35,274 bases of DNA from Phycisphaerales bacterium. GTDB lineage: Bacteria > Planctomycetota > Phycisphaerae > Phycisphaerales > SM1A02. Made by a program: the position numbers and the translations under genes. This document shows, piece after piece, positions 15,012-35,274 of this stretch (the first letter of the stretch is position 1; each line of letters starts with the position of its first letter). The notes under the pieces were generated by a model. The model did not search any database and had not been told where the DNA came from. It saw nothing but the letters and a program-made list of their open reading frames with translations. The stretch spans positions 1-35,274 of the forward strand of contig JABABZ010000008.1 in the NCBI GenBank assembly GCA_014237965.1, in the 5' to 3' direction.

Positions 15012-15040
15012 ATGTGGCTTGCCGGGCGATTCGCACGGGG

Positions 15041-15119: not shown

Positions 15120-15125
15120 GAAGAA

Positions 15126-16025
15126 ATGAAGATCCGACTGTGCTCGCTGGCTTGCATGATCCCCGTGGCCATGGCATCAATCTCATCCGCTGACGTCATC
15201 GAGATGAATCTCGGTCGATTTCAGTTCAACGGAGGTGTGGAGGACTACACCTACGAGGGTGACCATGCGGATGTTCTGGGGACGGACTACGAGGGTGATC
15301 CTTATGTCCGGACCGTTGCGACCGTCGATCTGGGATCGCTCTTCAGCCAGTTGGACATGAGTTCCATCTCCTGGATTCGAATCTCGGACATGGGTGACAA
15401 CTACTACAACCCGAACAACGACCCTGGAGCCGACGTCGATCTCTTCGCGCTCAGCGGCCAGCCTTCCGACATCATCACCACCTATGAATATGACGGCCCG
15501 AACCCGCGATACGCGTCATCGACCAGCGGGCAGATCGCGTCCGAGGTCGCGGTCGTCGACATGGACTACGGCGGAGGCGATGCGGCGCCGTGGTGGATCT
15601 CGCTCGGTGAGAACGGATCGATCACCATGTGGCTTGATGGATGGACTTCCGATGATTCCGACGGTCCCGGTGACGGTGACGGGTCGGGTGACGGAGATGG
15701 ACCCGGCGATGGCGATGACTCCGATGGTGGCGGTGATCCGGGAGATGGCGGAGATCCCAGCGACGACGGTGACGGCAGGGATCCCACCTGGTCGATTCTG
15801 GCCGCCCTGAAATCCGGCACGAAGCCCATCGATGGCGGTGGCATCACGCTGCCGTCCTACGATCTCTCCGGCTTCCAACTTCGCATCAACGAAGTCTCTC
15901 CCACGCCGGAGTGGGTCGATATCTCGATCGGTTACGAGACGGCAGGTTCCACGGTCGTTCCCGGCCCGGCGATGCTCTCCGTGGTGGTCGCAGCCGCAGG
16001 TCTGGTTCGTCGTCGAAGACGATGA
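15126..16025 (+). CDS. Exported hypothetical protein with Asp/Gly-rich tract and PEP-CTERM-like C-terminal tail
   Basis: Signal-like MKIRLCSLACMIPVAMASISSADV; C-terminus VPGPAMLSVVVAAAGLVRRRRR (Pro-Gly-Pro, hydrophobic helix, Arg cluster). Start at 15126 preferred over the track start 15012. Confidence 0.65.
   Translation: MKIRLCSLACMIPVAMASISSADVIEMNLGRFQFNGGVEDYTYEGDHADVLGTDYEGDPYVRTVATVDLGSLFSQLDMSSISWIRISDMGDNYYNPNNDPGADVDLFALSGQPSDIITTYEYDGPNPRYASSTSGQIASEVAVVDMDYGGGDAAPWWISLGENGSITMWLDGWTSDDSDGPGDGDGSGDGDGPGDGDDSDGGGDPGDGGDPSDDGDGRDPTWSILAALKSGTKPIDGGGITLPSYDLSGFQLRINEVSPTPEWVDISIGYETAGSTVVPGPAMLSVVVAAAGLVRRRRR
15651..15776 (+). repeat. Low-complexity coding repeat (GDGDGSGDGDGPGDGDDSDGGGDPGDGGDP...)
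   Basis: Repeating GGTGACGG/GGAGATGG-type units encode DDSDGPGDGDGSGDGDGPGDGDDSDGGGDPGDGGDPSDDGDG. Confidence 0.85.
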
Positions 16026-16085
16026 ATCGGACAATTTCGCGGCGTTCCCCGCAGTCCGCCATGGTCCCTCGATAAAGTGGTGACC

Positions 16086-17418: not shown

Positions 17419-17484
17419 TCGCAGAGGCCGTTCAGCGTCGGCGGGAGGAACTTGCCCCGATCCGACAGAAGGAAGGATTCACGC

Positions 17485-17997
17485 ATGCTTGACAAGACTC
17501 GACGCCTTCGCCCGGTTCATCGCCGTGGCTTCACGATCATCGAACTCCTGATCGTCATCGGGATCATCCTGGCCATCGGCGGGCTGGTTCTGGTGAATGT
17601 CGTCGGGGCGAGCGAGAAGGCTGACAAGTCTCTCACGCTTGCGCAGATTCAGGCTTTCAACCGGGCCCTCGAACAGTTCAAGGTCGAGATGAAACGATAT
17701 CCCTCCGAGGAGGAGGGCCTCGTCGTGCTCTGGAACGGTGAAGAGCTCGAAGATGAAGATGATTCCTCCAAGTGGGGCGGTCCCTACCTCAAGGAGGGAA
17801 ACCCCAACGACGTCTGGGGAAGCGAGTGGATCTACCGGAACCCCTCCGAGGTCGAGGGTGTCGCGTATGACATCGTCTCGATCGGGCCTGACAAGGAGGA
17901 AGGTACCGATGATGACATTTCCAGCAATGACGGCCGAGTCGGTGCCGATGGCGAACCGTTGGACGACTTCAGCGACTTCTCGCCGAGTGGTTCCTGA
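17485..17997 (+). CDS. gspG: Type II secretion major pseudopilin GspG
   Basis: Prepilin motif HRRG|FTIIELLIVIGIILAIGGLVLVNV; EQFKVEMKRYPSEEEGL; C-terminal calcium-site-like SIGPDKEEGTDDDISS. Confidence 0.93.
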   Translation: MLDKTRRLRPVHRRGFTIIELLIVIGIILAIGGLVLVNVVGASEKADKSLTLAQIQAFNRALEQFKVEMKRYPSEEEGLVVLWNGEELEDEDDSSKWGGPYLKEGNPNDVWGSEWIYRNPSEVEGVAYDIVSIGPDKEEGTDDDISSNDGRVGADGEPLDDFSDFSPSGS

Positions 17998-18769
17998 CCG
18001 CAAGCCCGTCTCCGTCACTCGCGGATTCACCATCCTCGAACTGCTCGTCACGCTGGGAATTCTTCTGGCGGTCGGTGGCATTCTGATCCCCTTCACGCTT
18101 GCCGAGTTGGAGCGGCGGGAATTGGTGCTCGCCGAAGACCAGCTTGGGATGCTCGTTCAATTCGCCCGAGTCGAATCGAGGCGAAGCGGAGCGCCGGTCG
18201 AAGTGGTCATCGACGCGGATGGTCGAAACGTGGAAGTTCTTCGGCTCGATCCGAAATCACTCGGTGACGGAGTCTTCGTCGATGCAGAAGATGCGGGAGT
18301 CGCTGTCGACTTTGAAGATGTCGTCGAGGTCGACGAGTCCGCCTCCGATCGTCGACTGCCGTCTCGTTGGGCTCGGCGAGCACTTCCGGAAATCGCATCT
18401 CTGAGGCCGCCGCCCAGCATCGATTCCGTGCTCGCGGGGTTCCGGCCGGAAGACGCGTTCGGTGGATTCGACTTGGATTCTCCGACGTCGGCCGTCGAGT
18501 CGGCGTTCGATTCGCCCTGGCCGGGACCGACGCGGTTGGCGGTCGCCTTTCCCGATGGTTCCGTGGTGACGGTCACGCCTGCGGTCCTCGTTTCCTCGGG
18601 GCGGCTTCGATCCTGGGAGATCGATCCCTGGAACGGGCGTTCGAGGTTCGGGCCGTTCACCAATCCGATTCCAGAGGAGTCGATCGAATTCGAAGAGGAC
18701 GTCGAAGACGAACTTTCGATCGATCAGTTCGACCTGAATCCCGAACTCGACTTCGGAGCGCCATCGTGA
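17987..18769 (+). CDS. gspH: Type II secretion minor pseudopilin, GspH-like
   Basis: Prepilin motif TRG|FTILELLVTLGILLAVGGILIPF. The track ORF is over-extended upstream; GTG 17987 (11-nt overlap with gspG) or ATG 17948 are more plausible starts. Confidence 0.75.
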   Translation: MVPDRKPVSVTRGFTILELLVTLGILLAVGGILIPFTLAELERRELVLAEDQLGMLVQFARVESRRSGAPVEVVIDADGRNVEVLRLDPKSLGDGVFVDAEDAGVAVDFEDVVEVDESASDRRLPSRWARRALPEIASLRPPPSIDSVLAGFRPEDAFGGFDLDSPTSAVESAFDSPWPGPTRLAVAFPDGSVVTVTPAVLVSSGRLRSWEIDPWNGRSRFGPFTNPIPEESIEFEEDVEDELSIDQFDLNPELDFGAPS

Positions 18770-19251
18770 GACGTTGGTGCACGCACGCACGCTCCGGTCG
18801 TCGTGGCGGCCTTCTTCTGGAGACGTTGATCGCCATCGCGATCTTCGTCGGGTTGGCCACTTTCTCGCTTGGTGCGGTGCGGGACGGCATCCTGGCGGCC
18901 GAACGAGCCAGGCTCCGCATCGTCGCCGTCGACCTCGCGTCCAGTCGCATCGCGGAGATCGAGTCGGGCCTGGTGTCACCCTACGGCTCCGAAGATTCGG
19001 TTGGAATCGATGTCGAAGAATTCGACGAGGCGCCATCTCCGTTCCGGATCGAGATGGAAGCGGAACCTTCGGGTTTCGCGGGGCTGGTTCGCGTGGTGGT
19101 CTCGGTCTTCGAAGTCGACGACTCTTCCTCGTCGTCGACGTCCGAAGAACGCCGACTGGCGCGGCTCGTGTCGCTGGTTCCGGACGCATCGGAGTCCGCT
19201 GCGCCGGAGAGAACTTCCGAGCCGTCGTCACAAGACGAGGATGCGCCATGA
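18766..19251 (+). CDS. gspI: Type II secretion minor pseudopilin, GspI-like
   Basis: GTG start in a 4-nt overlap (GTGA) with the upstream stop; prepilin-like RRGG|LLLETLIAIAIFVGLATFSLGAV. Assignment by operon position and motif. Confidence 0.7.
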   Translation: MRRWCTHARSGRRGGLLLETLIAIAIFVGLATFSLGAVRDGILAAERARLRIVAVDLASSRIAEIESGLVSPYGSEDSVGIDVEEFDEAPSPFRIEMEAEPSGFAGLVRVVVSVFEVDDSSSSSTSEERRLARLVSLVPDASESAAPERTSEPSSQDEDAP

Positions 19252-20051
19252 GCATTTCGCCGAATGATCGACTCCGCTCGCCCGTGGACGGCGGCTTCAC
19301 GCTTCTCGAGACGCTTCTGGCGCTCGCGATGGTGATCACGCTGCTCTTCGTGATGACGAGAGTCTTCGACGATCTCGTCGACGCGCGGCGCCGGATGGAA
19401 CGCAGCGCGTCGATCGTGGAGGGAGCGACGTCGGCATTGGAGCTGCTCGCCCGCGCGGCGGACACCGTGGTCGCGTCCAGTGATTCCGGTGAGGCGGGCG
19501 TGGTCGGCGATGCGACGTCGCTTCTGATCACGCGAAGCGGTGTTGCGACGAGTCGGCTCTCTCGTGCCGGTTCCGACGTCTCTCCGCTGTTCGACAAGCA
19601 TGGCATCGAACTCGGCTTCCGAAACGGCGGTTTCGAAGTGAAGGACGGGGATGGCGGAGCGTGGTCGACCCTGATACCCGAGGTCTTCGCGGTTCGTTTC
19701 CGGTATCACGACGGGACGTCGTGGGCCGGAACCTGGGACAGCAGCGCCTCGGGTCTGCCGGTTGCGATCGAATGCGCCATCTGGACGACTCCGTGGCCGG
19801 AGAATCTGCGACCAGCATGGATTCCGGATGCGGAGGATGAAGGGGCCATCGAGGACGACTCGGAAGACCTCTTCCCGGATGACGCGATCGCGACGGAATT
19901 CGGAAGCGATGCTGACGACCCGTTCTTCGGTTCGCCCACCTTCCTGACCGCGGATGATCCGACGCCTCGCCCCGATCATGTTCGAGTGGTGGCGATCATC
20001 GATGCGATTCCCGGTTCGGAGCCTGGTGAAGAAGGCGAGGTTCGTCCATGA
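19248..20051 (+). CDS. gspJ: Type II secretion minor pseudopilin, GspJ-like
   Basis: ATGA overlap with gspI; DGG|FTLLETLLALAMVITLLFVMTRVFDDL; VFAVRFRYHDGTSWAGTWDSSASGLPVAIE resembles GspJ C-terminal regions. Confidence 0.78.
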   Translation: MSISPNDRLRSPVDGGFTLLETLLALAMVITLLFVMTRVFDDLVDARRRMERSASIVEGATSALELLARAADTVVASSDSGEAGVVGDATSLLITRSGVATSRLSRAGSDVSPLFDKHGIELGFRNGGFEVKDGDGGAWSTLIPEVFAVRFRYHDGTSWAGTWDSSASGLPVAIECAIWTTPWPENLRPAWIPDAEDEGAIEDDSEDLFPDDAIATEFGSDADDPFFGSPTFLTADDPTPRPDHVRVVAIIDAIPGSEPGEEGEVRP

Positions 20052-21808
20052 ATCGGGACACGAGACTCCGATCGGAGATCGAGAGGCGGCGAGGTGTGGC
20101 GCTCGCCGCGGTCCTGCTGGTCGGCATGGGGATCATGCTGCTGGCGCTCGGGGTGATCCATCTGGTGCGTTCGGAAGTCGCGGGACTGGGTGCCGCGGAG
20201 GACCTCGAGCAGTCGCGATTGCTGGGTCGAAGCGCCATCCGCGCCTTCGCCGTCGAGCTGGATCGCGAGCGGGAATTCATGTTGCGAGGAGAGAATCCTC
20301 GCCTTCCGGAGAACATCGAACTGTTCGAGTTGGATGACGGGTCGGGATCCGGAGTCGCCGTCGCTCGTCTGCTTCCAACCGGTCCGGGCGGGGCTCGCCT
20401 GGTGGCGGAAGCAGGGAGACTCGATCTCAACCTGATCGACGCGGAGTCGCTCGCCGATACGGGGTTCATGACGATCGAGGAGGCGAGAACGGTGGTCGCC
20501 GCTCGGAGCGCTCGTCCGGGTGCTCGGTTCGATTCCGTACTCGACCTGCTCTCGCTGGTCGGCGACGTCTCGTTCGGTCCCGTCAGAATTCACGGCCCGC
20601 TCGATGAGATCTCGATCCTCTCGCTGGTCGATGCGGACGAGGGGTCGGCCGGCGACCGGGTGCTCGCTCGCCTCGATGCGGATCTCGGCGCCGATGTTCG
20701 TGGACTGGCGGATCTCCTCACGGTCCACGCTTTCGAGCCGGATGTCTGTCGCGACGGCCTTCCGCGGTTGGTCGATGGGGCCGCATCATCCGATGACGTC
20801 CAGTCGCTGGCACTGGAAGATCGAGACACGGTGACGTTGCTCGAGAAATTCCTCGGGACCGGACCTTCCGGGGATGGCGAGGCGACGGCAGGCGCGGGCA
20901 GGAAGAGATCTTCGAGGAATCGAGCGAGGTCGGAAACGCCGGAGGCCGACACCGAGCGGCCGATCGCGGATTCGAGCGAGAACGAGTTGCTGCCCCGACT
21001 GCGTTCGGTGCAATCGTTGGAGCTTGGCGATCTCGGACTGGCCTACGACTCGGTCACCGATGCCGAGGGTGGTTGGCGGAATGGGCTGCTCGACATCAAC
21101 ACCGCGAGCACGGAAGCGCTTCTGGGCATCGAAGGCATCGGGCCTGAACTGGCGGCGGCCATCGTCGCGCAACGGGAGTCGCTGCCGGTGGACCGCCGAT
21201 TCGATCGTCTCTGGCCCGTGGCGGAAGGGCTCGTCGACATCGCGGAGTGGGATGAGATCGCGCCTCGGATCACCACCCGGTCACTTCTCTGGAGAATGAC
21301 CATCGCGGTCGGTTTCGTCCGAGACGATACGGTCGATGAATCGCTCGAGCACCCCACGGTATGGGAGGTCGTCTTCGATTGCGGTTCGCAACCGCCACGG
21401 GTGGTCGAGCTCCGGGATGTGACGATGCTCGAACTCGTGGCGCGGATCGTCGCCGCGGAATCGGACGGTCTGGAATTCGAATCGACCGGGATCGCCGCGG
21501 ACGGGTCGGCCGGCCTCGATCTGGAGGAAGGACTCTTCGAGGAGGACTCGCTCTTCGAATCTTCGTCGTTGTTCGATGCGTCACCGGGGCTCTTCGATGA
21601 CCAGCCTTCGTTGTTCGAAGGAGATTCACTCTTCGACATGGAATCCGAGCCTGCCGAAGGCTCGGACTTCTTCGATTCGGAGCAGCCGCTCTTCGGCCCC
21701 GATGATGCGAGCAGGAGCGAAGATCCGGGGGAGACGGTCGATTCCGGAGGGGCGTCCAGGGCTCGCGGTCCGGGTGGGCGATGGCGTCCTGCAACCGGAG
21801 GCAGGTAG
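20048..21808 (+). CDS. gspK: Type II secretion minor pseudopilin GspK with acidic C-terminal extension
   Basis: ATGA overlap with gspJ; RRGVALAAVLLVGMGIMLLALGV (GspK-type N-terminus lacking Glu5); helix-hairpin LLDINTASTEALLGIEGIGPELAAAIVAQRES. Confidence 0.85.
   Translation: MNRDTRLRSEIERRRGVALAAVLLVGMGIMLLALGVIHLVRSEVAGLGAAEDLEQSRLLGRSAIRAFAVELDREREFMLRGENPRLPENIELFELDDGSGSGVAVARLLPTGPGGARLVAEAGRLDLNLIDAESLADTGFMTIEEARTVVAARSARPGARFDSVLDLLSLVGDVSFGPVRIHGPLDEISILSLVDADEGSAGDRVLARLDADLGADVRGLADLLTVHAFEPDVCRDGLPRLVDGAASSDDVQSLALEDRDTVTLLEKFLGTGPSGDGEATAGAGRKRSSRNRARSETPEADTERPIADSSENELLPRLRSVQSLELGDLGLAYDSVTDAEGGWRNGLLDINTASTEALLGIEGIGPELAAAIVAQRESLPVDRRFDRLWPVAEGLVDIAEWDEIAPRITTRSLLWRMTIAVGFVRDDTVDESLEHPTVWEVVFDCGSQPPRVVELRDVTMLELVARIVAAESDGLEFESTGIAADGSAGLDLEEGLFEEDSLFESSSLFDASPGLFDDQPSLFEGDSLFDMESEPAEGSDFFDSEQPLFGPDDASRSEDPGETVDSGGASRARGPGGRWRPATGGR
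21530..21706 (+). repeat. Acidic 'LF[DE]' short repeat in the GspK C-terminus
   Basis: GLFEEDSLFESSSLFDASPGLFDDQPSLFEGDSLFDMESEPAEGSDFFDSEQPLFGPDD; seven LF occurrences. Confidence 0.8.
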
Positions 21809-21857: not shown

Positions 21858-23333
21858 ATGGCTCGGAACATCCAACTCGCCGTCGATGTCGGACGTCGCG
21901 CGCTGCGTGCGGCCAAGATCCGTCCCGGTCGGCGGACCACGCTGGCCGCCACGGTCTTCGAGCCCATTCCCGAGGATGTCGCGACGGATGACGCGGAGGC
22001 GATCGGCATCGCTCTCGGCGCGGCGATGGAACGTGCCGGTCTCGGAATCGGCCCCGCGGTGTTCGCGCTTGATCGTTCGATCACGAGTTTCAAGCGGCTT
22101 GAACTTCCGACGGCTGATCCGGACGAACTTCCGGAGATGGTCCAGATCGCCGTCGAACGAGAGCTTCCCATCGAAGCGGGAGATGCGGTGATCGACTTTT
22201 CGATCATCGAACGCACCGCGGATGCCTACGTGATCGAGGCGGTGGCGGTACCGAAGCGAGAGATCGAGAGGATTCACGCGATCGCCGAAGCGGCAGGTCT
22301 GAAGGTCGCTCGAATCGCGCCTCGATGTCATGGTGCCATGCGTCTCGCGGATCCGGTCGAACCGACCTTGTTTCTGGACGTGACCGGGGAAGGCCTGGAG
22401 CTCGGTCTGGTCGAGGGCGGATTTCTCAAGTGGTCCAGAGGCGTCGCCCTGGACGGTGTCGATGGCGCCCCGCCGACTGCGGACGAACTCGTTCCCGAGA
22501 TCCGGCGAAGCTGGTTGAGTTACCGCGTCTCCGCAGGCGACATCGATTCGCCGATGCTTCTGGTCCTGGGCGGCGAACAGATCGCGGACTCCATCGGTCG
22601 CATTTCCGAAGCCACCGGCCTCACCACGCAGCGGTTCATCGGTGATCGTCGGGTGCAGGCCGACGTCGACATGCGCGGTGTCTGGCCGTTGGTGGGACTG
22701 TTGCTTCCGACCGCGAGCGATCGCCAGGTCGACCTGGCGGCTCCGCGGCGAACGCCGGATCGTGCGGCGAGACTTCGCCAGATGATTCTTGCCGCCGCAG
22801 GGTTGTCGATGATCGCGGGAGGCATCGGTTGGACCATCGGAGAATCGCAACTCGAAGCGCTCCGCCTCAATGAGGAAGATCTGCTCGGGAAGGCGAGGGT
22901 CGGGAACGACGAGCATCTGCGATTCAAGAGAGATGTCCTGAGGGCCGACCACCTCGAGGCATGGGCGTCCGTCCGCCCCGCCTGGCTGGAACACCTCCTC
23001 GTGGTGGCCACGCCGGGCATCGACATGGGTGGGACCGTGCTCGACGAATTCGGTGGTTTTCTCGAGGACGAAAAGGTCGAATTCACATCCGGAAAGACGT
23101 TCGTGGTCGATCCGAACGTCCGCATCATCGTCGAAGGAGAATCGCGAAGTCGGGATGCCGCGGCGGAGGTCCGCGCCGTGCTGGTCGCGGACGATCGGTA
23201 CGTCCTGCGAACCACGGGCGCCGATGCCGAAGGTGGAAGGCGCCTTCCCTACCCGTTCGGCTTCTCGATGCGTACGAAGGTGACCGATCCCGGCCCCGCC
23301 GAAGTCGCGCCCGAATCGGGAGGTGCGGAGTGA
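21858..23333 (+). CDS. gspL: Type II secretion GspL-like (PilM actin-fold plus PilN-like) protein
   Basis: NIQLAVDVGRRALRAAKI...PAVFALDRSITSFKRLELP...QIAVERELPIEAGDAVIDF (PilM-like), then a TM segment LRQMILAAAGLSMIAGGIGWTIG and a periplasmic region. Confidence 0.75.
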   Translation: MARNIQLAVDVGRRALRAAKIRPGRRTTLAATVFEPIPEDVATDDAEAIGIALGAAMERAGLGIGPAVFALDRSITSFKRLELPTADPDELPEMVQIAVERELPIEAGDAVIDFSIIERTADAYVIEAVAVPKREIERIHAIAEAAGLKVARIAPRCHGAMRLADPVEPTLFLDVTGEGLELGLVEGGFLKWSRGVALDGVDGAPPTADELVPEIRRSWLSYRVSAGDIDSPMLLVLGGEQIADSIGRISEATGLTTQRFIGDRRVQADVDMRGVWPLVGLLLPTASDRQVDLAAPRRTPDRAARLRQMILAAAGLSMIAGGIGWTIGESQLEALRLNEEDLLGKARVGNDEHLRFKRDVLRADHLEAWASVRPAWLEHLLVVATPGIDMGGTVLDEFGGFLEDEKVEFTSGKTFVVDPNVRIIVEGESRSRDAAAEVRAVLVADDRYVLRTTGADAEGGRRLPYPFGFSMRTKVTDPGPAEVAPESGGAE

Positions 23334-24313
23334 ATCGTCGGGAGCGAAGACTGGTGATCGTCGCGGTCGTCCTGGGCGTGCTGGGTGGCGCCGGTTCGCT
23401 GGGGTGGGCGGTCGGCTCCGGTCGGTTGAACGGCGATCGCACCGAACTCCTGCGAAAGACCGACCTCTATCGGAGAGTCCTGCTGACCGTCAGGGATGAG
23501 CGATTGGAACGCCCGGCTCTCGATGAGCGTCTCGGCGAGGTCGTCGATCGTTCGCTCGGTGGAGAGTTGGAATCCGTCGACAGTGATCTTCGCCGACGTC
23601 TTGCCATGCTGGCCGAATCGGCCGGCGTTCGCGGCGCCAGTGTCTCGACGGTCGGTGCCGCGGTGATCGCGACACCGGCGGCGCGAGAATTCTCGAGATC
23701 GGGGAACGAGCGGGCGTTTCGAGACGAGCCGGACTTCGTGGTGGTGCGAGCGAACGTCAAGGGAGTCGGAACGATCGATGCCGCGGTGCGTTTTCTTCAT
23801 GAACTGGATGCCGCTCCCTGGGTGAAGCGGATCGAGCAGGTCAGGTTCGACCCCGACCGGGAGGGCAAGTCGATCGGGATCGCCGTCGGTGTCGCCACGC
23901 TCTTTCTTCCCGGCCTCGCCGGTGACGGCGAGTTGGATCAACGCCCTCCCTCCTCCCGGAGGCCGGGATCGAGATACGACTCGCTCGTGGCGGCCAATCC
24001 GTTCTCACTGCCCGAGCCGCCGGTGACTCCGTCGAGGACCACATCACCCCCGAAGGTGCTGGTGGCGCCGAAGAATCCTCGGGCGGCCTGGAAGCTGACC
24101 GGGATCATGGAGGGGCCGGATGGAACGGAAGCCTGGCTTCGGCAGGTTGAAACCGGAGAGACGATCGAACTGCTCGTATCGGTCCAGAGGGAAATCGGTG
24201 GGCAGATCGTGCTGCAACTCGACGCCGCCTCAGGCGACATTGCCCGTTTCCGAGTCGGCGAAGAAACCTTCCGAGTGCTGGTCGGTTCGACTCTGGATCG
24301 TCCGCTCCCCTGA
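23330..24313 (+). CDS. GspM/PilO-like protein with a C-terminal GspC/PilP-like (HR) region
   Basis: GTGA overlap with gspL; single N-terminal TM (RRERRLVIVAVVLGVLGGAGSLGWAVG) then PilO-like helices; after a Pro/Ser-rich linker, ANPFSLPEPP...AAWKLTGIMEGPDGTEAWLRQVETGETIELLVSVQREIGGQIVLQLDAASGDIARFRVGEETF resembles PilP/GspC-HR. Confidence 0.62.
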   Translation: MNRRERRLVIVAVVLGVLGGAGSLGWAVGSGRLNGDRTELLRKTDLYRRVLLTVRDERLERPALDERLGEVVDRSLGGELESVDSDLRRRLAMLAESAGVRGASVSTVGAAVIATPAAREFSRSGNERAFRDEPDFVVVRANVKGVGTIDAAVRFLHELDAAPWVKRIEQVRFDPDREGKSIGIAVGVATLFLPGLAGDGELDQRPPSSRRPGSRYDSLVAANPFSLPEPPVTPSRTTSPPKVLVAPKNPRAAWKLTGIMEGPDGTEAWLRQVETGETIELLVSVQREIGGQIVLQLDAASGDIARFRVGEETFRVLVGSTLDRPLP

Positions 24314-24559: not shown

Positions 24560-27500
24560 ATGCAGACGACCCGGAAGTGCGTTCGGCGGACCACGTTGGC
24601 AGCGGCCTTGATCGGCTTCCTTGCGGGGATGCCACCGGCCTACTCGCAGGAAGCGGAAGAACCGCCTCGGCCGGTCCTCGATGATCAGGGTGTTCCTCAG
24701 GTTCGGTTCAACTTCAAGAGCCAGACCTGGGATCAGGTGCTCGACTACTTCTCTCGCGTGACGGGACTTCCGATCGTGCGCGATGCGGAGGTTCCGGGCG
24801 GAACGGTCGACTACATCAATCCAACTCCATACCCGCTTCCCAAGGCGCTTGAGACGCTCAATCTCCTCCTGCAGACTCGAGGGCTCGTGCTTCGCGATGA
24901 AGACGGCCGTCTGGTCCTGGAAGATCTTGCACAGATCAAGAAGGAGAACATTCCCACCTTCGTCGGCGACCTTCCGGAGGATGTGACCGCGGACACGCTG
25001 GTGACGCTCATCGTGCCGCTGGTGAACGCCACCGCGGCCAGCGTCTCCGAGCAGCTGAAAGAGATGGTCGCCGATTACGGCATGGTCGTCGCGCTCCCGC
25101 AGCAGAACTCGTTGCTGCTCGTCGAGACCGCGGCGAACGTTCGTCGCATTCAGTTGATCGTCGACGAGCTCGATCGCGAAGACGTCGAGAACCAGGTCGA
25201 ACAGATCCCGCTGAGGTATGCGAGTGCCACCGAGCTTCTTCCCACGCTCACGAAGTTGATGAGCGAGCGAGTGGTCAAGACGGTGACCAAGGGCAAGGCG
25301 AAGGTCCAGGTCGAAGAGGATGTGATGCCCGCGGGGTTCCGCATCACCGCCGACGAACGAACCAACTCGATCATCGCCCGAGGAACACCGCGTCGCCTCG
25401 ATCGGCTTCGGGCCGCCATCGAACTGCTGGACTCCGAGAAGATCGGTTCGGTGATGTCGATGCGGACCATCCAGCTCGAACGTCTCACCGTTGAAGAGGC
25501 GAGGGCGAAACTGGACGCGCTCTTCGCAGGGGTCCCCGAGGGCCAGCGGCCGACCTACGTCGCGCTCGAAGACACGAATCGCCTCACGATCTCCGCTGAT
25601 GCGGGGTTGATCGAGCAAGCCACGAGTTTCCTGGCCGATCTCGAGAGCGGCGGATCCCCAGATGCCCCGGGTACGGCAACCGTCACCCTGTTCTCCCTCG
25701 CACACGCTTCTCCTGAATCGGCGATTCAGGCCTGTCAGGCCGTATTCACGCCTCGACAGGCGGCCGTCGTCAAGTTGGTTCCGGGTCCGGATGGGCGAAG
25801 TCTGGTGGCCGCCGGTCCGGCCGGAGATATCGAATCCGTCCGAAAGACGATCCTGCTCATCGATCGCCCCGGGCGGGTTGATCGCCAGGTTCGATACCTC
25901 ACGGTGGATGCCGTCGATCCCACGGTCGCGGTGGCTCGAGCCACGCGGATGTTCGAGGCGGAGACCGTCGGAGAGCCCACGTGGGAAGTGCAGTCGGACT
26001 TCGATCTTCCGTCCCGCCGGCTGGTGATCGAAGGAACCAAGGAGGCGCTCGACGCATTCGAGCGATCTCTTGCGACCGCGGAAGCGTCGATCGAAGCCAA
26101 GACGATGGTTCGGCAGTTCACCGTGAAATCGACGACGCCGAGTCGTCTCGTGAATTCCATGTCCACGCTCTCGCGGTCCATGCTGAAGCCTCGTGACGGG
26201 AGCCCGTTCACGCCGCCGACGTTCGAAGCGGTCGATGCCCTCGGCCTGCTGGTCGTGACCGCGACGCCGGATCAGCTCGTCACCATCGACACGCTTCTGG
26301 CCACGCTTGACCGCCCCCAGCCTGGAGACGTCACCTATCGCGTGATTCCACTCGGCACGAGCGACGCGGCCGTGCTGTTGGAACGGGCGATGGCGGCGTT
26401 CGATCGGCAGGCGAGTTCGCTGGCGACCGATGAGTTGTCCCGCCCGGAAGTCTCCGTCGACCCGGCTGCAGGCGTGTTCGAGGTGATGGGTTCGACGAAA
26501 TCGGTCCAGGCCTTCGAGCGATCACTGGCCGAAGCACGCCGACTGCTCCCCCCCGCGCCGGTGAGCCGAATGATCGCCATTCGGCAGGCGCGAGCTTCGG
26601 AGATCCTCCCGCCGCTTCTCGCCATGATCGAAATGACGACGGATCTGAGCGACGGCCGGGTGATCTCGCCTCCCACGATCGAGATCGTCACGCCGACCAA
26701 CAGTCTCTGGGTCCGCGGTGATGCGGCTCAGGTCAAGTCGATCGAAGCGTTCGTCCGTGAACTCGACGTCTTCGAGCCGACCGACATGCCGCCGCTTCGA
26801 ATGCTCCAGCTCGCGGGGAGCGACGCGATGCAGATCGCGCGACTGCTGACTTCCAGATACGACGCCCGGCCCAATGACATTCGCCGCGAGCAACCCGTTC
26901 GAGTGGAAGCGGATGCCGCCACCAACACCCTGGTGGTCACCGCGCACGAAGCGGTCTTCGGCGAGATGAAGGAGTTCGTGGAGGCGTTGAATCGCAACAC
27001 CGAGACCGAAGCGGAGCGGGAGACCATGATCTTCCCCTTGCGGCTCGCTCGGGCGATGGATCTCGCAAAGGCGCTCGGAACCCTGTATCCCGAACCGCCG
27101 ATGCCTCTGGATACCCGGGGGCGTCCGCTCCCGCACCTTCGCCAGCCGCGAGAGGTCTTCGTCAGCGCGGATGCGGGCACCAACACGCTGATCATCGAAG
27201 CGCCGAGCGGGCGCAAGGCCAGCTTCGAGGAGCTGGTCAAGCAGCTCGACCGGATCGAGCTTCCGCCGCAGGCGTCACTCAAGACCTGGAACGTGGTTCG
27301 TGGCGAAGGGACGCAGATCGCGACCACGCTTCAGAATCTCGCTCGGCAGGGGGTACTCAGTCGCCCCGGGTCCAATGGCGAGAAGGCGGTCGAAGTCACC
27401 GTCCAGTTCGAGCCTCGCAGCCGGACCCTGATCGTCGCCGGTGATGAGTTCACGTTCGGGAAGATCGAGGAGATTCTCGCCGATCTGGAAGCGGTTCCGG

Positions 27501-30500
27501 TCCGTCGAGCCTTGCGAGTGATCGAGATCACCGCCGGGGACGCCTCCGAGATCGCCACCCGTGCGACGCGGCTCTTCCAGGAGCAGACTGCCGGAGACCC
27601 GGACTTCACCGAGGTCGAGGTCGAAGTCGATGCGGTCAACGGGACCATCCTCGCCGTCGGCGAGGATGAATCGTTGAACCGATTCAGTCAGGTGGTCGCG
27701 CAACTCGAGTCGACGCAGGCAAGGCCGCCCGACGTCCGGCTCATCTCCCTCCAACACTCCGATTCGACCGAAGTGGTCGAGATGCTGACCGAACTTCTCG
27801 GGAACGAACTTGCCGTCGCGACGCTCGGCGGTCCGCCGCCGGTCATCGAGGCGCTTCCGCAGGTCAACGCGATCCTCGTTGCGGCCGAACCCCGAGAGCA
27901 CGAGATCATTCGCCAGATCGTCGACACCATCGACACGGCGGATGAAGCGCTTCCGCCGATTCGCATCCTGCAGGTCCGAACCGCGGACGCGGCCAACCTC
28001 GCTTTGGCGCTCGGTCAGACCTACGAACGTCGCTCGAACGAGGAGAAGGCCGCGAAGCCTGTTCGAATCAGCGCCGATACGGCGACCAATGCACTGATCG
28101 TCGCGGCGCATCCCGATCTCCTCGATGAGATCAGGACGATCGTGTCGGATCTCAACGACGCCGACCGGCTCGACGCCGAAGGTCGTGAGATTCGCATCTT
28201 CCCGCTTCGAATCGCGCGAGCGGAAGATCTCGCCAAGACGATCGACCAGATGTACCCCGAGCCGCCGATGCCTAGAGACAGCCGAGGCCGGCCTCGGCCG
28301 GATCTTCAACAGACGCGGGAAGTCGTGGTTCGAGCGAACCCGCAGATGAATGCGTTGATCGTCGATGCCCCCATCCAGCGGATGGCGGGGTTCGAGAAAC
28401 TGGTCCAGCAGCTCGACCAGACGCAGCTCGTCGAAGAGACGGAGATCCGAACCTGGAAGCTTCCCACGCTCGAGTTGGAGGCGGCGGCGAAGACGCTTCG
28501 CGAGCTCGCCGACGGTGGGCATCTCGGCGGAGGCGAGCTGGGCGTGGCTGGTTCCATCTCGATCACCGTGGACGCGGCGACCGACACCCTGCTGGTCTCG
28601 GGACCGACGGAGATCTTCACGCGAGTCGCGAAGGTCATCGAATCACTCGAAGCCGGGCCGGTGGTGCCGGCCACGAGTCTTCGCACTTTCCGACTCGTCC
28701 AGGCGAGAGCCGATTCTCTCGCTCCGATGCTTCGGGAGATCCTGGTGGCGAGACTGATCGAGTCCGCCCCGGGGGGTGATCGCGAGATTCAACGTCTGCT
28801 CACCGTCACCGCCGACCGGAAGACCAACACGATCATCATCTCGGCGCCCGATGTGGTGATGCCGGTGGCGGAGGAGTTGATTCGCACGCTCGACGCGAGT
28901 GCTTCGGCGATCGGCGACCCGACGGTTCGAGTGCACCCCCTGATGTTCGCGGATGCGGCCGTGGTCGCGACCGCGTTGCAGCAGGCGATCCCGGGCATGA
29001 CCAGTCCGGCGACGGGAGATCTCATGGCGGTCAAGGTCGTGCCGGCGGCGGGTTCGAACGCGTTGCTGCTGGTCGGAATTCCCGAGGAGATCGACGAGGT
29101 CGAGCTGCTGATCGAGCCACTGGACGCTCGACCCGCGACCGACGCGATGGATGCGCAGACCTTCGAACTCACGCATGCCGAAGCCGCCCGGATCGCGCCG
29201 ATCGTGCAGTCTCTTCTCGACGACCAGCAGGGGAACGATCCTCGAATTCTCATGGAGCGCATTCGGCGGAGCCGCGGGGTGGTGGACCTCACGCCGAAGA
29301 TCCGAGTCGAAGCGGACGATCGAACCAACAGTCTGATCGTCAGCGGCCCCCAGCAAGCAGTCAATCTCGCGGGAGGTCTGATCGAGAAACTCGATCGGCC
29401 GGACGTGGATGCAGAGCGCACCTACGCCACTTTCACCCCTCGCAACGCCAATGCGGAACGCATGATCGGGACGGCCCAGCAAGTCCTCGATCAGACCCGC
29501 CCCGGCGGAAGTCGTTCCAGCCTGGAGCTCATGCTCGAGCCGGAGAGCGGCTCCATTCTGATCGTCGGAACCTCCCAGGAATCCGATCGGGCGATCGCGT
29601 TGTTGAAGGAATGGGATTCGAACGTACCGACGCTTCCCGCCATCGACTTCGGCGTGATCACGCTCGAGAACGCGGAGGCGACCGCGGTGGCTGCGACCAT
29701 CGGTCCGATCCTGCGTGACCGCAGTCGCTGGCCCGCTTCGCTCAGAGAAGCCATGCGGTCGGGAGTCTTGATGGCCGAACCGAGCGTGACGGCGGACGTC
29801 TCTGGAAATCGACTGTTGGTTTCGGCGCCGGCGGCGCTGCAGGCCGTCGCGACGACGCTGGCGAGGGAACTCGACCGGAATTCGGCGGGTGATGTGGTGG
29901 AGGTTCGCGTGTATCCGGTTCCCGCGGGAGGTGCCGAAGGGATGGCGTCCGCCATGCAGGCCGCCCTCGACGCCGCGGCGACGGCGCGGCCCGGCGAACC
30001 CATGCCGGTGGTCGCGTCCGCCGGACGATCCGATGCGATCGTGGTGACCGCATCGCCTCGCTTGCAGGAGATCGTGTCCGCGCAGTTGACGGTCATGGAG
30101 ACCTCGGGAAGCGGCGTCCAGGTCCGGACCGTGTTCCTCAAGCACGCCTCGGCCGCTCGAATCGCACCACTCGTCGAACGGATGCTCGCCGAGCAGGCGA
30201 TCATCGATCCTCGGGACCTCCCCGGTTGGATGCGGGCGGAGTTGATGATCGCGAAGGTTCGAGGTCAGGTGCCCGATGAGGCGCCGATCCGTGTTCTTGC
30301 CGACGACCGTCTGAACGCGGTGGTGGTGACCGGTCCGAGTGCCGTCCTGAATGCCGCCGAGCAACTCGTCTCGCAGCTCGACGTGCCGGCCGGTGTCGGC
30401 GGAGGCCGTTCGATTCGAGTGCTGGAGATCAGAAACGCCGACGCTCGTGAACTTGCGACGACCCTTGATGAGCTCTTCGTCGAGGACGACGACGGTCAGG

Positions 30501-33500
30501 CTCCTCCGGCGATTCGAGTGAATGCATCGAGCAACACCTTGCTGGTCCGGGCCACCCCGGAGCAGTTCACGGAGATCGAATCGATCGTGAACAGCATCGA
30601 CGACGCATCATTGAACGTGGCTCGAGAACTGAGGACGATCCCGATCGATCCCAGTCGAGGGTCGGCGGAGGACATCGCGCGGATGATCGAGCGGATGCTC
30701 GATCGCGAGGATGACGATCGAGTGCGGATCGTGCCCATCGACGAACTCCTCGAGCGATCTGGATCCAAGAGCGGTGCCGATGGCAAGGTCTCCCGAGCGA
30801 TCCCCTCCGGCCCGATGGGAATGCTCGGCATGGCTCGCTCGGCGGTGCTGGCGGTCTCGCTGGCCGCGATGCCTGCGGCCGCTCAGGACGGGCAGTCGAC
30901 TTCACCGGTTCAGGACGAGGCCGAGGTGATCATCGCCGTCGATCCGGCAACCAATTCTCTGGTCATTCTGGGTTCTCCGAGGGAGTTGGATCAGGTTCAA
31001 GGGCTTGCCGACGAGGTCGAGGATTCACTTCCCGATGAGGGAAGCGTCATCAGAACGGTCCCGCTCCCGGCGGACGTGGATGTCCGGAACGTCGGGAACG
31101 TCGTGACGGCGACGCTTCGCCAGCTGGTTCCGGCCGGTGGGAAGCCCGGCGACTTGAGCAGACGAACCGCGGTCGTCCCGGATCTGACTTCGAATTCCCT
31201 GGTGATCGCCTGCCGCGATGATGACTTTCCGCTCATCGCGGAGCTCATCGCATCGGTCGCTCGTCCCGCCGAAGCGGCGAAGGTGGTGGTCCGGGTCTAC
31301 CGGTTGACCGACATGAGCGCTGATCGAGCGGCCAGCGGTCTCAACGCGTTATTGCTTCGACCAGGAAATGGACGGTTCAACGAACTGGCGATCACCCTGG
31401 ATGCAGACGGCCGGACGGTCCAGGCGCAGTTCGATCCGGCGCAGGTGAAGGCGGTGGCGGATTCGGAAGCGAATGCGCTCGTGATCATGGCACCAGAGGC
31501 GGCGATTCCGTTTGTCGACCGATACATCGAACTCGCGACCCAGTCGCCCAAGGGTGATCGGACGACTCTTCGACTCTTCGAACTTCGCTACGCCCGGGCT
31601 TCCGAACTTCAGAAGACGTTCCGGCAGATCTTCCAGACGCGATTCCGGAACATCCGGCGAAGCGGGTCCGCCAAGGCCGCGGAGCCGGACTTCGCGGTCG
31701 ACGAACGAAGCAACCAGTTGATCGTGACGGCCAGCACGGAGGAGCTCTCGGAAGTCGAGAGTCTGCTCAAGAAACTTGATGTCGAGGATGGAAGCGAACG
31801 CAATCCGCTCACCGTGATCGAGCTCGTCTCGGCCCAACCGAGCGCCGCAGCGCGACTACTCGATCAGGCGGTGATCGGAAACGACGAACGGCTCAGATCG
31901 ACCACGTTGATTCTCCCCGATGACGCTTCGGGGATTCTCCTGGTGCGGGCTGATGGCCTGACGCTCTCGGAGATGAACGATGTTCTGGGAAGAATCGATC
32001 GCGAGGCGACGAGCCGGTTCCCGGTTCGGACGCTGGAACTCCTGCGGGCGGATGCCGGCGAGGTCGCCGAGGCGATCCAGCAGTTCTACGACGATCGAGC
32101 ACAGCTCTTCTCATCCGGCCGCGGACGTCGGGCCCAGTCCTCGACGGTCGCGATCACCGGTCGGACCGGAGGCGCGACGCTTCTGGTCGCTTGTGACGAT
32201 CCGACGTTCGAGGAAGTCAGCAAGCTCGCCGCGACCTTCGACGAGAAGGATGCGACGGCGGGATACGAGTATCGAATCTACGAGTTGAAGCATGCGCGTG
32301 CCGCGGATGCGTCGCAGACCGTCGAGTCGCTCGTGCAGTCGCTGACCATGAGCGACGCCAGCGTCGTTCGTTCCTGGATGTCGCGTCGGGCCGACCAATC
32401 TCGCAACAGCCTCGGGACGATCGCGATCCAGGTCGATGACCGGCTGAACGCCCTCATCGTGAGTGGCCGTGGAGACCGGTTCGAGCTGGTCGAGGATCTG
32501 ATCAACTCGCTCGACGTTCCCACTCCCGATGACGAGAAGCGGGTCGTCCGGTACTACCGCTTGGCGGGTACCGATGTGGGGCTCATGGAGAACGTGCTTC
32601 GGGACGCGCTCGGAGTCGAACAGTCACAGTCCCGCCGCTGGTGGATGATGGATGACTCGGAGGACTCCGAGGCGAAGATCTTCGCGGACGAGCGTTCCGA
32701 GACCATCTTCGTGGTCGGGAGCGAATCCCAGCAGGCAGGTGTTCAAGCGATCATCAAAGATCTCGACGCGATGATGGCGGGCGGTGAGTCCTCGGTCGAA
32801 GTGGTGAGGACCGAGTTCGCCGATGCGGGGGATGTGGCCGGCGCCGTGGATCGATACCTCCGAAGCCGATCGCGGGCGACGGGCCGGACGGCCACGGTGA
32901 TCGTGACGGAGATTCCGAACTCCGGTGCCATGCTGGTCGCCGGGACGGCTGACGAAGTGCGGATGGTCAAGGATCTGGTCGGCCGCATCGATGCTCCGGA
33001 CCTCTCGGGAGCTCGCTCGCTCGAGATCGTGCCGATTCAGCGCGGCGATGCCGTGGAGATGGCAACGTTGGTCGGCGCACAATTCGAGCGCCGAGGCGGA
33101 GAGGGCGTGGTCATCACGCCGGACTCGAGAACCAACTCGATCCTGGTCAACGCGCCGAGTCAGATCTATCCCCAGATCGCGGCCCTGATCAGTCGCCTTG
33201 ACGCGCCCGACGACACCACCGAAAGCGTGATCCGAACCTACAACCTCGAGGTCGCCGATGCGTCCGAGGCGACCCGCATCCTTCAAGAGACGCTGCGGCT
33301 GGATGAAGACGGCCGGACCACGGGCATCTCGATCGAGATGGAAGATGCGGAGGCCGGCTCCTCGCCCATCGAGGTGCAGGCGACGATCGTCGCGGACCGT
33401 CGGTCGAACTCGATCGTGGTCACCGCGACCAAAGTCAGCCTTCCGGTCATCGAATCGATACTCGCGAAACTGGAGGAGGCGCCGGCCCGGAGCCCGATCG

Positions 33501-35274
33501 AATATCGCATCATCACGCTCGAACACGCCCCCGCGGTGGACGTCTCCTACACCCTCGATCGCCTGCTGATGGCTCGCGGATTCGAGTGGCAGGACGTGGC
33601 GGTGGACTACAACCGGTTCGAGAACCAGCTCATCATCGGTGCCACGCCGGACCAGTTTGAAGTGATCGACACGGTTCTCGCGGAGCTCGACACGCCCGGA
33701 ACCCGCACCCGCCGGACCGACTTCGTCGCGTTGCAGTTCGCCGACGCCACCAAGCTCAAGGACGCGCTCGCCAACTTCTACGGCCCGTATGCGATGGAAG
33801 CCGACACCCCCGGCAAGCAGAATGTGCGGATCATCGCCGACGAAGCCACCAACAGTCTGGTCGTGACCGCGGCCGAACCCGAGTGGAAGGGCATCCTCGC
33901 CCTGGTGGATCAGCTCGACAGCGAAGAGTACGACGCTTCCTTGCAGCTGGCGGTTCTGCCGCTGGTCTATGCGGATGCCCGAAGCGTCTCGCGTGCGATC
34001 AACGACGCTTTCCGACCGCAGGTCGAGGCTGCTCGTCGAAATCAGAACGAGAATCGAAGTGAGAATCGCCAGCCCGACGCCGACCGTTCAAGTCGCGATC
34101 GCAATGAAGTGGCGCCACCGGTCCTGATGCAGAGTGAGGAATGGGTCAGTGCGAGTGCGGAAGTTCAGACGAATTCGCTGGTGATTTCCGCGAATCGACA
34201 GAATCTCGCCAAGATCGAGCGGATCGTCGAGCAGCTCGACGTCGCCGACTTCGTTCGTCTCCCGGCACCGCGGCTCATTCCGGTCGGCACCGGTGACCCC
34301 GAGACTCTCGCGGGGGCGCTTCGCACCATCTACCTGCCGGAAGGCGAGAATCGTGGTGGAACGCTCCGCATCGTGGGCGACCGCACCGCCAACGCGGTGA
34401 TCGTTCGAGCGGACGAAGACGAGTTCGCACAGATTCAGGCGTTGGCGAACGCCCTCCAGCAGGAAGCCGACTCGAAGGGGCTTTCGGTTCGGGTTCTTCG
34501 TCTCCAATCGGCTCCAGCGGCACGGGTCGCGGAATCGGTCCGCGGCGCGTTCGCGGCGAAGGCAAGGCAGGCCAAGGTCCCCTTCTCGGTCGAAGTGGAT
34601 TCCGTCGGGAACGCATTGGTGATCGCCTCGACCGTCCCGTTCTACGAAGAAGTCGCGGCAACCGTCCGGGAGATGGATCGCCTGGCACCGGCGGCGGGTC
34701 AGGGCATCTTCCTGATCGATCTCGAGAACGTCCCCGCATCGGTCGCAGAGCGTGCGGTGCAGCAGATCGGACTCGACAAGCCGCAGCCCGCGGACTCGAC
34801 CTCGCGTCTCGTGGTCGAGCCGATCAAGATCTCCACGCTCAGCGGTCGCAACGCGGTTCTGATCGTGGCGAATCCCGCCGACAAGGAGACGATTCTCGGA
34901 ATTCTCAAGGCGATCGACTCGGCTCCCGACGCGGAGTTGGGAACGTCGGAGCTTCGCGTGGTCGCCTTGCAGCGAGCGAGTGCGGTCGCGGTCATGAATC
35001 TGATCGACAAGGTGATCGATCCGGCCGGTGGTCCGGACGGCAACGCGATCGCAGCGGCGGTCAAGGAACAGATTCGGCGACTCAACATCGTGAACCGTCA
35101 AGGCGTGCCGGTCTCGCTGGATCTCACCAAGCCGATCCGGGTCACCGCCGATGAGGCAGGCAACTCGATCCTGATCAGTTCGACGCCCGACAACGTGAAG
35201 GCGCTGGCCGAGGTCATCGCGCTCTTCGACCGTCTTCCGAGCACCGAAGCCCTCACGGTTCAGATCTTCCCGCT
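24560..35274 (+). CDS. Giant secretin-N-repeat protein at the GspD position, 3'-truncated by the window
   Basis: ATG 24560 with GGAG at 24550-24553. Signal peptide MQTTRKCVRRTTLAAALIGFLAGMPPAYSQ, then an N0-like VRFNFKSQTWDQVLDYFSRVTGLPIVRDAEVPGGTVDYINPTPYPLPKALETLNLLLQTRGLVLRDEDGRLVL, then about 42 modules with the '..D..TNSLIV.a....l..i..li..LD' pattern. Manual codon-by-codon reading showed no in-frame stop to the window end. Confidence 0.9.
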   Translation, partial: MQTTRKCVRRTTLAAALIGFLAGMPPAYSQEAEEPPRPVLDDQGVPQVRFNFKSQTWDQVLDYFSRVTGLPIVRDAEVPGGTVDYINPTPYPLPKALETLNLLLQTRGLVLRDEDGRLVLEDLAQIKKENIPTFVGDLPEDVTADTLVTLIVPLVNATAASVSEQLKEMVADYGMVVALPQQNSLLLVETAANVRRIQLIVDELDREDVENQVEQIPLRYASATELLPTLTKLMSERVVKTVTKGKAKVQVEEDVMPAGFRITADERTNSIIARGTPRRLDRLRAAIELLDSEKIGSVMSMRTIQLERLTVEEARAKLDALFAGVPEGQRPTYVALEDTNRLTISADAGLIEQATSFLADLESGGSPDAPGTATVTLFSLAHASPESAIQACQAVFTPRQAAVVKLVPGPDGRSLVAAGPAGDIESVRKTILLIDRPGRVDRQVRYLTVDAVDPTVAVARATRMFEAETVGEPTWEVQSDFDLPSRRLVIEGTKEALDAFERSLATAEASIEAKTMVRQFTVKSTTPSRLVNSMSTLSRSMLKPRDGSPFTPPTFEAVDALGLLVVTATPDQLVTIDTLLATLDRPQPGDVTYRVIPLGTSDAAVLLERAMAAFDRQASSLATDELSRPEVSVDPAAGVFEVMGSTKSVQAFERSLAEARRLLPPAPVSRMIAIRQARASEILPPLLAMIEMTTDLSDGRVISPPTIEIVTPTNSLWVRGDAAQVKSIEAFVRELDVFEPTDMPPLRMLQLAGSDAMQIARLLTSRYDARPNDIRREQPVRVEADAATNTLVVTAHEAVFGEMKEFVEALNRNTETEAERETMIFPLRLARAMDLAKALGTLYPEPPMPLDTRGRPLPHLRQPREVFVSADAGTNTLIIEAPSGRKASFEELVKQLDRIELPPQASLKTWNVVRGEGTQIATTLQNLARQGVLSRPGSNGEKAVEVTVQFEPRSRTLIVAGDEFTFGKIEEILADLEAVPVRRALRVIEITAGDASEIATRATRLFQEQTAGDPDFTEVEVEVDAVNGTILAVGEDESLNRFSQVVAQLESTQARPPDVRLISLQHSDSTEVVEMLTELLGNELAVATLGGPPPVIEALPQVNAILVAAEPREHEIIRQIVDTIDTADEALPPIRILQVRTADAANLALALGQTYERRSNEEKAAKPVRISADTATNALIVAAHPDLLDEIRTIVSDLNDADRLDAEGREIRIFPLRIARAEDLAKTIDQMYPEPPMPRDSRGRPRPDLQQTREVVVRANPQMNALIVDAPIQRMAGFEKLVQQLDQTQLVEETEIRTWKLPTLELEAAAKTLRELADGGHLGGGELGVAGSISITVDAATDTLLVSGPTEIFTRVAKVIESLEAGPVVPATSLRTFRLVQARADSLAPMLREILVARLIESAPGGDREIQRLLTVTADRKTNTIIISAPDVVMPVAEELIRTLDASASAIGDPTVRVHPLMFADAAVVATALQQAIPGMTSPATGDLMAVKVVPAAGSNALLLVGIPEEIDEVELLIEPLDARPATDAMDAQTFELTHAEAARIAPIVQSLLDDQQGNDPRILMERIRRSRGVVDLTPKIRVEADDRTNSLIVSGPQQAVNLAGGLIEKLDRPDVDAERTYATFTPRNANAERMIGTAQQVLDQTRPGGSRSSLELMLEPESGSILIVGTSQESDRAIALLKEWDSNVPTLPAIDFGVITLENAEATAVAATIGPILRDRSRWPASLREAMRSGVLMAEPSVTADVSGNRLLVSAPAALQAVATTLARELDRNSAGDVVEVRVYPVPAGGAEGMASAMQAALDAAATARPGEPMPVVASAGRSDAIVVTASPRLQEIVSAQLTVMETSGSGVQVRTVFLKHASAARIAPLVERMLAEQAIIDPRDLPGWMRAELMIAKVRGQVPDEAPIRVLADDRLNAVVVTGPSAVLNAAEQLVSQLDVPAGVGGGRSIRVLEIRNADARELATTLDELFVEDDDGQAPPAIRVNASSNTLLVRATPEQFTEIESIVNSIDDASLNVARELRTIPIDPSRGSAEDIARMIERMLDREDDDRVRIVPIDELLERSGSKSGADGKVSRAIPSGPMGMLGMARSAVLAVSLAAMPAAAQDGQSTSPVQDEAEVIIAVDPATNSLVILGSPRELDQVQGLADEVEDSLPDEGSVIRTVPLPADVDVRNVGNVVTATLRQLVPAGGKPGDLSRRTAVVPDLTSNSLVIACRDDDFPLIAELIASVARPAEAAKVVVRVYRLTDMSADRAASGLNALLLRPGNGRFNELAITLDADGRTVQAQFDPAQVKAVADSEANALVIMAPEAAIPFVDRYIELATQSPKGDRTTLRLFELRYARASELQKTFRQIFQTRFRNIRRSGSAKAAEPDFAVDERSNQLIVTASTEELSEVESLLKKLDVEDGSERNPLTVIELVSAQPSAAARLLDQAVIGNDERLRSTTLILPDDASGILLVRADGLTLSEMNDVLGRIDREATSRFPVRTLELLRADAGEVAEAIQQFYDDRAQLFSSGRGRRAQSSTVAITGRTGGATLLVACDDPTFEEVSKLAATFDEKDATAGYEYRIYELKHARAADASQTVESLVQSLTMSDASVVRSWMSRRADQSRNSLGTIAIQVDDRLNALIVSGRGDRFELVEDLINSLDVPTPDDEKRVVRYYRLAGTDVGLMENVLRDALGVEQSQSRRWWMMDDSEDSEAKIFADERSETIFVVGSESQQAGVQAIIKDLDAMMAGGESSVEVVRTEFADAGDVAGAVDRYLRSRSRATGRTATVIVTEIPNSGAMLVAGTADEVRMVKDLVGRIDAPDLSGARSLEIVPIQRGDAVEMATLVGAQFERRGGEGVVITPDSRTNSILVNAPSQIYPQIAALISRLDAPDDTTESVIRTYNLEVADASEATRILQETLRLDEDGRTTGISIEMEDAEAGSSPIEVQATIVADRRSNSIVVTATKVSLPVIESILAKLEEAPARSPIEYRIITLEHAPAVDVSYTLDRLLMARGFEWQDVAVDYNRFENQLIIGATPDQFEVIDTVLAELDTPGTRTRRTDFVALQFADATKLKDALANFYGPYAMEADTPGKQNVRIIADEATNSLVVTAAEPEWKGILALVDQLDSEEYDASLQLAVLPLVYADARSVSRAINDAFRPQVEAARRNQNENRSENRQPDADRSSRDRNEVAPPVLMQSEEWVSASAEVQTNSLVISANRQNLAKIERIVEQLDVADFVRLPAPRLIPVGTGDPETLAGALRTIYLPEGENRGGTLRIVGDRTANAVIVRADEDEFAQIQALANALQQEADSKGLSVRVLRLQSAPAARVAESVRGAFAAKARQAKVPFSVEVDSVGNALVIASTVPFYEEVAATVREMDRLAPAAGQGIFLIDLENVPASVAERAVQQIGLDKPQPADSTSRLVVEPIKISTLSGRNAVLIVANPADKETILGILKAIDSAPDAELGTSELRVVALQRASAVAVMNLIDKVIDPAGGPDGNAIAAAVKEQIRRLNIVNRQGVPVSLDLTKPIRVTADEAGNSILISSTPDNVKALAEVIALFDRLPSTEALTVQIFP
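26789..27300 (+). repeat. Copy A of an internal coding duplication in the giant ORF
   Basis: PPLRMLQL...FPLRLARAMDLAKALGTLYPEPPMPLDTRGRPLPHLRQPREVFVSADAGTNTLIIEAPSGRKASFEELVKQLDRIELPPQASLKTW. Confidence 0.75.
27953..28467 (+). repeat. Copy B of the internal coding duplication, offset about 1164-1167 nt from copy A
   Basis: PPIRILQV...FPLRIARAEDLAKTIDQMYPEPPMPRDSRGRPRPDLQQTREVVVRANPQMNALIVDAPIQRMAGFEKLVQQLDQTQLVEETEIRTW. Confidence 0.75.
30815..30886 (+). other. Internal signal-peptide-like / hydrophobic segment inside the giant ORF
   Basis: MGMLGMARSAVLAVSLAAMPAAAQ, in frame; Arg followed by a hydrophobic stretch and an Ala-Ala-Ala|Gln cleavage-like site. Confidence 0.6.
34034..34108 (+). 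other. Charged Asn/Arg-rich loop inside a secretin-N-like module
   Basis: RRNQNENRSENRQPDADRSSRDRNE interrupts a module between helix and strand. Confidence 0.6.

Follow-up and report, generated by a model that had tools for sequence, protein, structure and literature searches.

Few export channels have been studied as closely as secretins, and the few rings that they stack in the periplasm are assumed to suit its narrow width. What, then, is encoded by a frame in the secretin position of a T2SS operon that repeats one module over thousands of codons and leaves its contig before a barrel has appeared? The window analysed here, the whole stretch of 35274 bp, is the entire contig C315 of a Phycisphaerales draft genome of 3.03 Mb (326 contigs, 84% complete). 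The frame opens at ATG 24560 on the plus strand and runs to base 35274, 3571 codons without a stop, as the initial annotation had read it. Stop and barrel are missing from the window because the contig ends inside the gene. The parts that lie within the window are the following.

24560-35274, plus strand: giant gspD-type gene, 5' part (3571 of ~4776 codons; remainder on contigs C209 and C296)
24560-24646, plus strand: signal peptide, MQTTRKCVRRTTLAAALIGFLAGMPPAYS followed by Q, read by eye
24698-24949, plus strand: N0 domain, bounds approximate, inferred from the 5wq7 profile alignment and the model
25001-35230, plus strand: 42 N1-type modules (Secretin_N, beta-alpha-beta-beta-alpha), from Pfam, the iterated profile and the model
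26789-27250, plus strand: modules 9-10, relatives of modules 14-15 (top-scoring module pairs in three species)
27953-28417, plus strand: modules 14-15, relatives of modules 9-10
30815-30889, plus strand: hydrophobic patch resembling a signal peptide (MGMLGMARSAVLAVSLAAMPAAAQD; residues 2086-2110), in the long loop of module 25 at the place where the gene is split in genus g29

Organization of the frame indicates a secretin built largely of N1-type modules. Pfam Secretin_N (PF03958) matches 34 stretches of it (E 1.4e-285), which bears out the proposed secretin family, and an iterated family profile identifies exactly 42 modules in the window, the number that had been estimated by eye (residues 148-3557, ~71 aa each). 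The same profile counts 52 in a sister species whose ortholog is complete. The signal peptide is visible at the N-terminus. The N0-like segment is supported by the A3 profile, in which residues 18-265 of the segment align to residues 8-243 of GspD 5wq7 (N0-N1-N2, E 3e-18), and by a fold match to 3ezj and 4e9j. The modules are separated by linkers of 4-11 aa (median 7), compared with 5-6 aa for the N1-N2-N3 linkers of ordinary relatives. Adjacent modules are 26.5% identical, while orthologous modules average 38-88%. Modules 9-10 and 14-15 appear to be an old two-module block copy. A recent repeat expansion, or the collapse of one in assembly, was rejected, as the modules are ~25% identical within the chain and orthologous in register between families.

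The barrel, which the initial annotation did not see, was found on another contig. A search of the source genome gave Secretin barrel matches in five places, and one of them is found where contig C296 begins, in a frame that is open at its 5' end and carries PF00263 (E 2.6e-50) before it stops. Contig C209 consists of one open frame of 684 codons with seven more N1-type modules. Both were placed on the uninterrupted ortholog of the sister species (G003; 4804 aa, 52 modules), of which the window covers residues 29-3599, C209 residues 3857-4522 and C296 residues 4523-4804, ending at the same stop. The two contigs abut at ortholog DNA positions 14636/14635, and beyond the stop C296 tracks the flank of the ortholog for ~5 kb and shares with it a small gene 3' of gspD. 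The window and C209 are separated by a gap of 771 bases, enough for about three modules (43-45); this sequence was not found elsewhere in the draft genome. Because C209 and C296 are collinear with the ortholog, the full protein is reconstructed at ~4776 aa, with a signal peptide, N0, 52 modules and a barrel, and the proposed extension to a stop codon is reached on C296.

This result removes one of the three readings that had been offered for the gene (a tall periplasmic channel, a long tether, and a scaffold without a barrel that pairs with a separate secretin). The scaffold had its origin in the window itself, which holds no barrel. It is rejected, since this very gene continues through C209 to a barrel on C296, and a single barrel likewise closes the gene in all complete giant orthologs that were dissected; we give it practically no weight.

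Nor is there much room for an artefact of assembly or frameshift that would join several ordinary genes. Breaks of the gene do occur: it is spread over several contigs in the source genome, in G008 and in G024, and in the two-contig genome G051 (L117, 2170-18249) it appears as three overlapping frames, which may reflect sequencing indels or a decaying gene. However, giant-type GspDs (barrel score of at least 297 bits) are present in 61 of the 151 Phycisphaerales genomes, and 52 of the 61 are one frame of at least 3109 aa. Within the genus, separately assembled genomes each encode the complete ortholog in one frame (4781-4833 aa), and uninterrupted giant frames of 4856 and 4634 aa come from genomes that consist of a single contig. 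Over the 3571 codons of the window frame, dN/dS against G003 is 0.069, uniformly low at 0.02-0.12 per 300-codon block, and the giant secretin is under purifying selection. Intact orthologs in separate assemblies together with this low dN/dS rule out chance and assembly artefact, and the single barrel at the end of each gene likewise speaks against joined genes, an explanation that we regard as scarcely credible. The one natural split, in genus g29, yields two very long parts and not ordinary genes.

The genes upstream confirm that the giant gene occupies the GspD slot of a T2SS operon, as had been proposed: the Pfam matches to T2SSF and T2SSG are strong, those to T2SSJ, T2SSK and T2SSL are weak, and the synteny is conserved.

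16077-17273, plus strand: gspF (T2SSF; PF00482, E 7.9e-52)
17452-17997, plus strand: gspG, major pseudopilin (T2SSG; PF08334, E 1.6e-25)
18005-18769, plus strand: gspH-like minor pseudopilin, start approximate (prepilin motif; N_methyl E 0.03, below the cut-off; position; ortholog in L102)
18774-20051, plus strand: frame with a gspJ-like pseudopilin (T2SSJ E 6e-4, below the cut-off)
20048-21808, plus strand: gspK-like gene (HHH_3 E 1.4e-8; T2SSK E 1.9e-4, below the cut-off; synteny)
21858-23333, plus strand: gspL/PilM-like gene (T2SSL E 0.0076, below the cut-off; synteny)
23330-24313, plus strand: protein in the gspM position, conserved directly upstream of gspD

A gspI gene probably lies in another frame within 18774-20051, an assignment made by position only. 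The protein in the gspM position has no Pfam or PDB match; its C-terminal part is possibly GspC-like, and a GspC homology, which was considered, found no support in these searches. The operon lacks gspE, and 12 T2SSE matches are located elsewhere in the genome. The order F-G-H-J-K-L-M-D is common to the carriers of giants, and F-G-...-D is also found with 3-module GspDs. Directly 3' of gspD, a small putative lipoprotein is encoded in giant carriers (L007, 862-1434; L033, L034, L035, L037 and others), which has no Pfam match and is a possible pilotin or partner. Directly upstream of gspF, at 15012-16025 of the window, a secreted Gly/Asp-rich protein with a PEP-CTERM-like tail (VPGPAMLSVVVAAAGLVRRRRR) is encoded, a possible substrate of the T2SS.

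The protein is, with near certainty from its sequence, a secretin and the GspD of a T2SS. The C-terminal profile finds T2SS GspD as its best match among solved structures (6hcg, E 2.5e-71), with PilQ below, and Foldseek places the best matches of the models among T2SS secretins. The T2SS GspDs of known structure (PulD 6hcg, E. coli 5wq7, V. cholerae 5wq8) share with the giant the signal peptide, N0, N1-type modules, the C-terminal barrel and the T2SS operon. Pfam and neighbourhood agree: Secretin_N PF03958 and N0 are found in the window frame, barrel PF00263 on C296, and gspF, gspG and further pseudopilins upstream. The size and the module number of GspD are exceeded by far, with 30-56 modules (52 in this genus) against three and 3100-5100 aa against 630-940, and the giant is naturally split in one genus. 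With 52 modules and ~4776 aa, the present protein is thus a variant and not a standard GspD. Ordinary GspDs of other Planctomycetota (for example L093, L096, L099, L104) are the nearest relatives of its barrel and share the F-G-...-D order, but measure 632-873 aa with mostly three modules.

In comparison, PilQ of Thermus thermophilus has six stacked rings, N0-N5, and a channel of ~35 nm (PMC5745081, PMC4463427). There also, the channel through a wide periplasm is lengthened by additional ring modules of the beta-alpha-beta-beta-alpha type. PilQ, however, serves the type IV pilus, measures 757 aa and has five such modules, roughly a tenth of the giant's complement. That the giant itself is a type IV pilus PilQ was rejected, since the AMIN domain, a PilQ feature, has no Pfam match in the window frame, the operon has T2SSG and GspK-like genes instead of the pilM-N-O-P-Q set, and the barrel profile ranks T2SS GspD above PilQ. 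By sequence comparison, the giant is a GspD variant that is new and under strong conservation; searches of the openly accessible journal literature found none like it described.

Within Planctomycetota, the giant form seems to be a property of one order. In the comparison across the phylum, which was confined to Planctomycetota (a sample of 399 genomes) and to the best ~150 matches, all the barrel-bearing frames of more than 2000 aa among the matches listed are from Phycisphaerales. The module count is 37-56 in seventeen giants with a barrel and 30 in an eighteenth, against mostly 3 in their closest ordinary GspD relatives, which keep the same F-G-...-D order. The set of 151 genomes also holds sixteen ordinary GspDs of 721-936 aa, with barrel scores of at most 289 bits.

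Modules 1-52 of the sister-species ortholog find reciprocal best matches, in the same order, in further genera of its family; in another family, f2, the series is matched with some gaps. Changes in length involve whole-module blocks: G020, for example, has gained four modules behind module 5, and G028 has lost six. In the barrel tree, the main giant clade unites f1, f2 and f4 (97/99) and a second one f5/f6 (98/96), and giants fall on one side of a weak branch (60/88). Most modules of f5/f6 are out of register with those of f1, while among the last ~11 several occur in the same order in both clades. This shared order favours a single origin with later independent rearrangement over two origins of gigantism, on a branch of weak support (60/88).

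In three species of genus g29 (G036, G454 and G509), the giant is encoded by two adjacent genes, the break lying in module 25, after its first helix and before its second strand.

L114, 5663-18181; L115, 4273-16217; L116, 2324-15005: split giant secretin of genus g29, two adjacent genes

The first gene encodes a signal peptide, N0 and the modules through the first half of module 25, and the second encodes a signal peptide of its own, the rest of module 25, all later modules and the barrel. In the G454 pair (L115), the stop of the first gene and the start of the second overlap as ATGA. As g29 is nested among fused lineages with good tree support, a derived fission is the simpler reading. An ancestral two-gene state kept in g29 is disfavoured by the same nesting, although the relic patch described next leaves an older fusion possible.

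The fused giants carry, in the loop of module 25, an insert of 36-114 aa with a short hydrophobic patch resembling a signal peptide. Compared with shuffled versions of the inserts, its hydrophobic residues are more clustered than expected: the P values of 11 genomes range singly from 0.007 to 0.37 and combine to 1.3e-5, although the genomes are not fully independent of one another. The patch is weak in some genera (L043, L050), and other long inserts are less hydrophobic than this one. Both the two-gene split and the patch appear to be new here, and the patch is inferred to mark a seam at which the chain could be produced in, or cleaved into, two parts. It is conceivable that the secretin consists of two chains everywhere, with signal peptidase or an internal start producing two polypeptides at the seam that rejoin through the split module. 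The separate genes of g29, each with a signal peptide and one pair with the ATGA overlap, speak for this, as does the patch of the fused giants. Yet fission seems to be the derived state, the patch is not long and in places weak, and the genomes are not independent samples, so that we consider two chains in all giants somewhat unlikely. Such a form is compatible with a ring stack as well as with a tether, and its probability overlaps that of the ring stack discussed below.

We consider it probable that a normal secretin barrel sits on an extremely tall channel of stacked rings, as a T2SS GspD that has grown from about three to 52 N1-type modules. Some 15 chains would come together, as they do in other GspDs; the barrel would lie in the outer membrane, N0 would form a ring on the platform of the inner membrane, and every module would join its counterparts in the neighbouring chains to close one ring. 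This would give ~53 stacked rings, through which the pseudopilus would push folded proteins across a wide or invaginated envelope. Since the linkers are as short as in ordinary N1-N2-N3 segments, the same axial stacking is expected to repeat. The low identity of neighbours against the higher identity of orthologs fits a homotypic, ring-by-ring packing, and divergence between the modules would hold the chains in register. A stack of several rings has its precedent in Thermus PilQ. Each secretin ring is taken to add 2.5-4 nm in height, a value based partly on that precedent. Extrapolation from other secretins gives a channel that would be very roughly 130-200 nm tall for 53 rings.

The main rival to this stack of rings is a flexible tether or scaffold, in which only the last few modules would form rings under the barrel and the others would link the inner and outer membranes flexibly, or bind cargo or peptidoglycan, with no continuous channel. 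AlphaFold predicts the modules as beta-alpha-beta-beta-alpha folds (mean pLDDT 79) and the C-terminal part as a secretin fold (mean pLDDT 67); the mutual placement of the modules is not resolved (pTM 0.26), which would suit a tether. The variation of module number by whole blocks between genera would also be tolerable for one. Against it, the linkers are as short as in GspDs that stack their rings, every module is individually conserved in register with no drift, and ordinary modules of the secretin family build rings. We consider a tether quite unlikely, and the tall channel, among the readings first offered, the best.

The ring-stack channel may exceed 100 nm in height, far beyond any secretin found described. 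A tube of more than 100 nm has no known precedent, and planctomycete tomograms are not known to have shown such a tall structure. The enlarged periplasm to which the initial annotation appealed is indeed known in planctomycetes, but has been shown, with its invaginations, in Planctopirus and Gemmata, from other orders than Phycisphaerales; links between outer membrane and cell membrane at crateriform structures were likewise shown in other orders (PMC5394234). A more specific version, which we hold to be unlikely, would be a trans-envelope tube of ~53 rings and more than 100 nm, with the module number as a ruler of the local envelope width and two chains meeting in the split module, encoded by two genes in one genus and elsewhere by a fused chain with an internal seam resembling a signal peptide.

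A T2SS secretin would then have about ten times the ring modules of Thermus PilQ, the tallest characterised secretin named here. If true, envelope-spanning machines would be scalable by module number, and the channel would make the enlarged envelope of planctomycetes physically accessible to study. The ring stack predicts that channel height is linear with module number in species with 30 to 56 modules.

Many of the small genomes of family f1 (1.9-2.9 Mb; for example G009, G013, G025, G026, G033) are without a giant-type GspD. Elsewhere, ordinary and giant systems appear to coexist: genome G060 (L045, L046, L090; C296) encodes two giant secretins and one ordinary GspD, and G492 one of each. 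In the source genome, contig C325 (L010) encodes another secretin, 941 aa long and with 4 modules, close to further gspF/gspG-like genes, which suggests that this organism has an ordinary-size secretin system as well.
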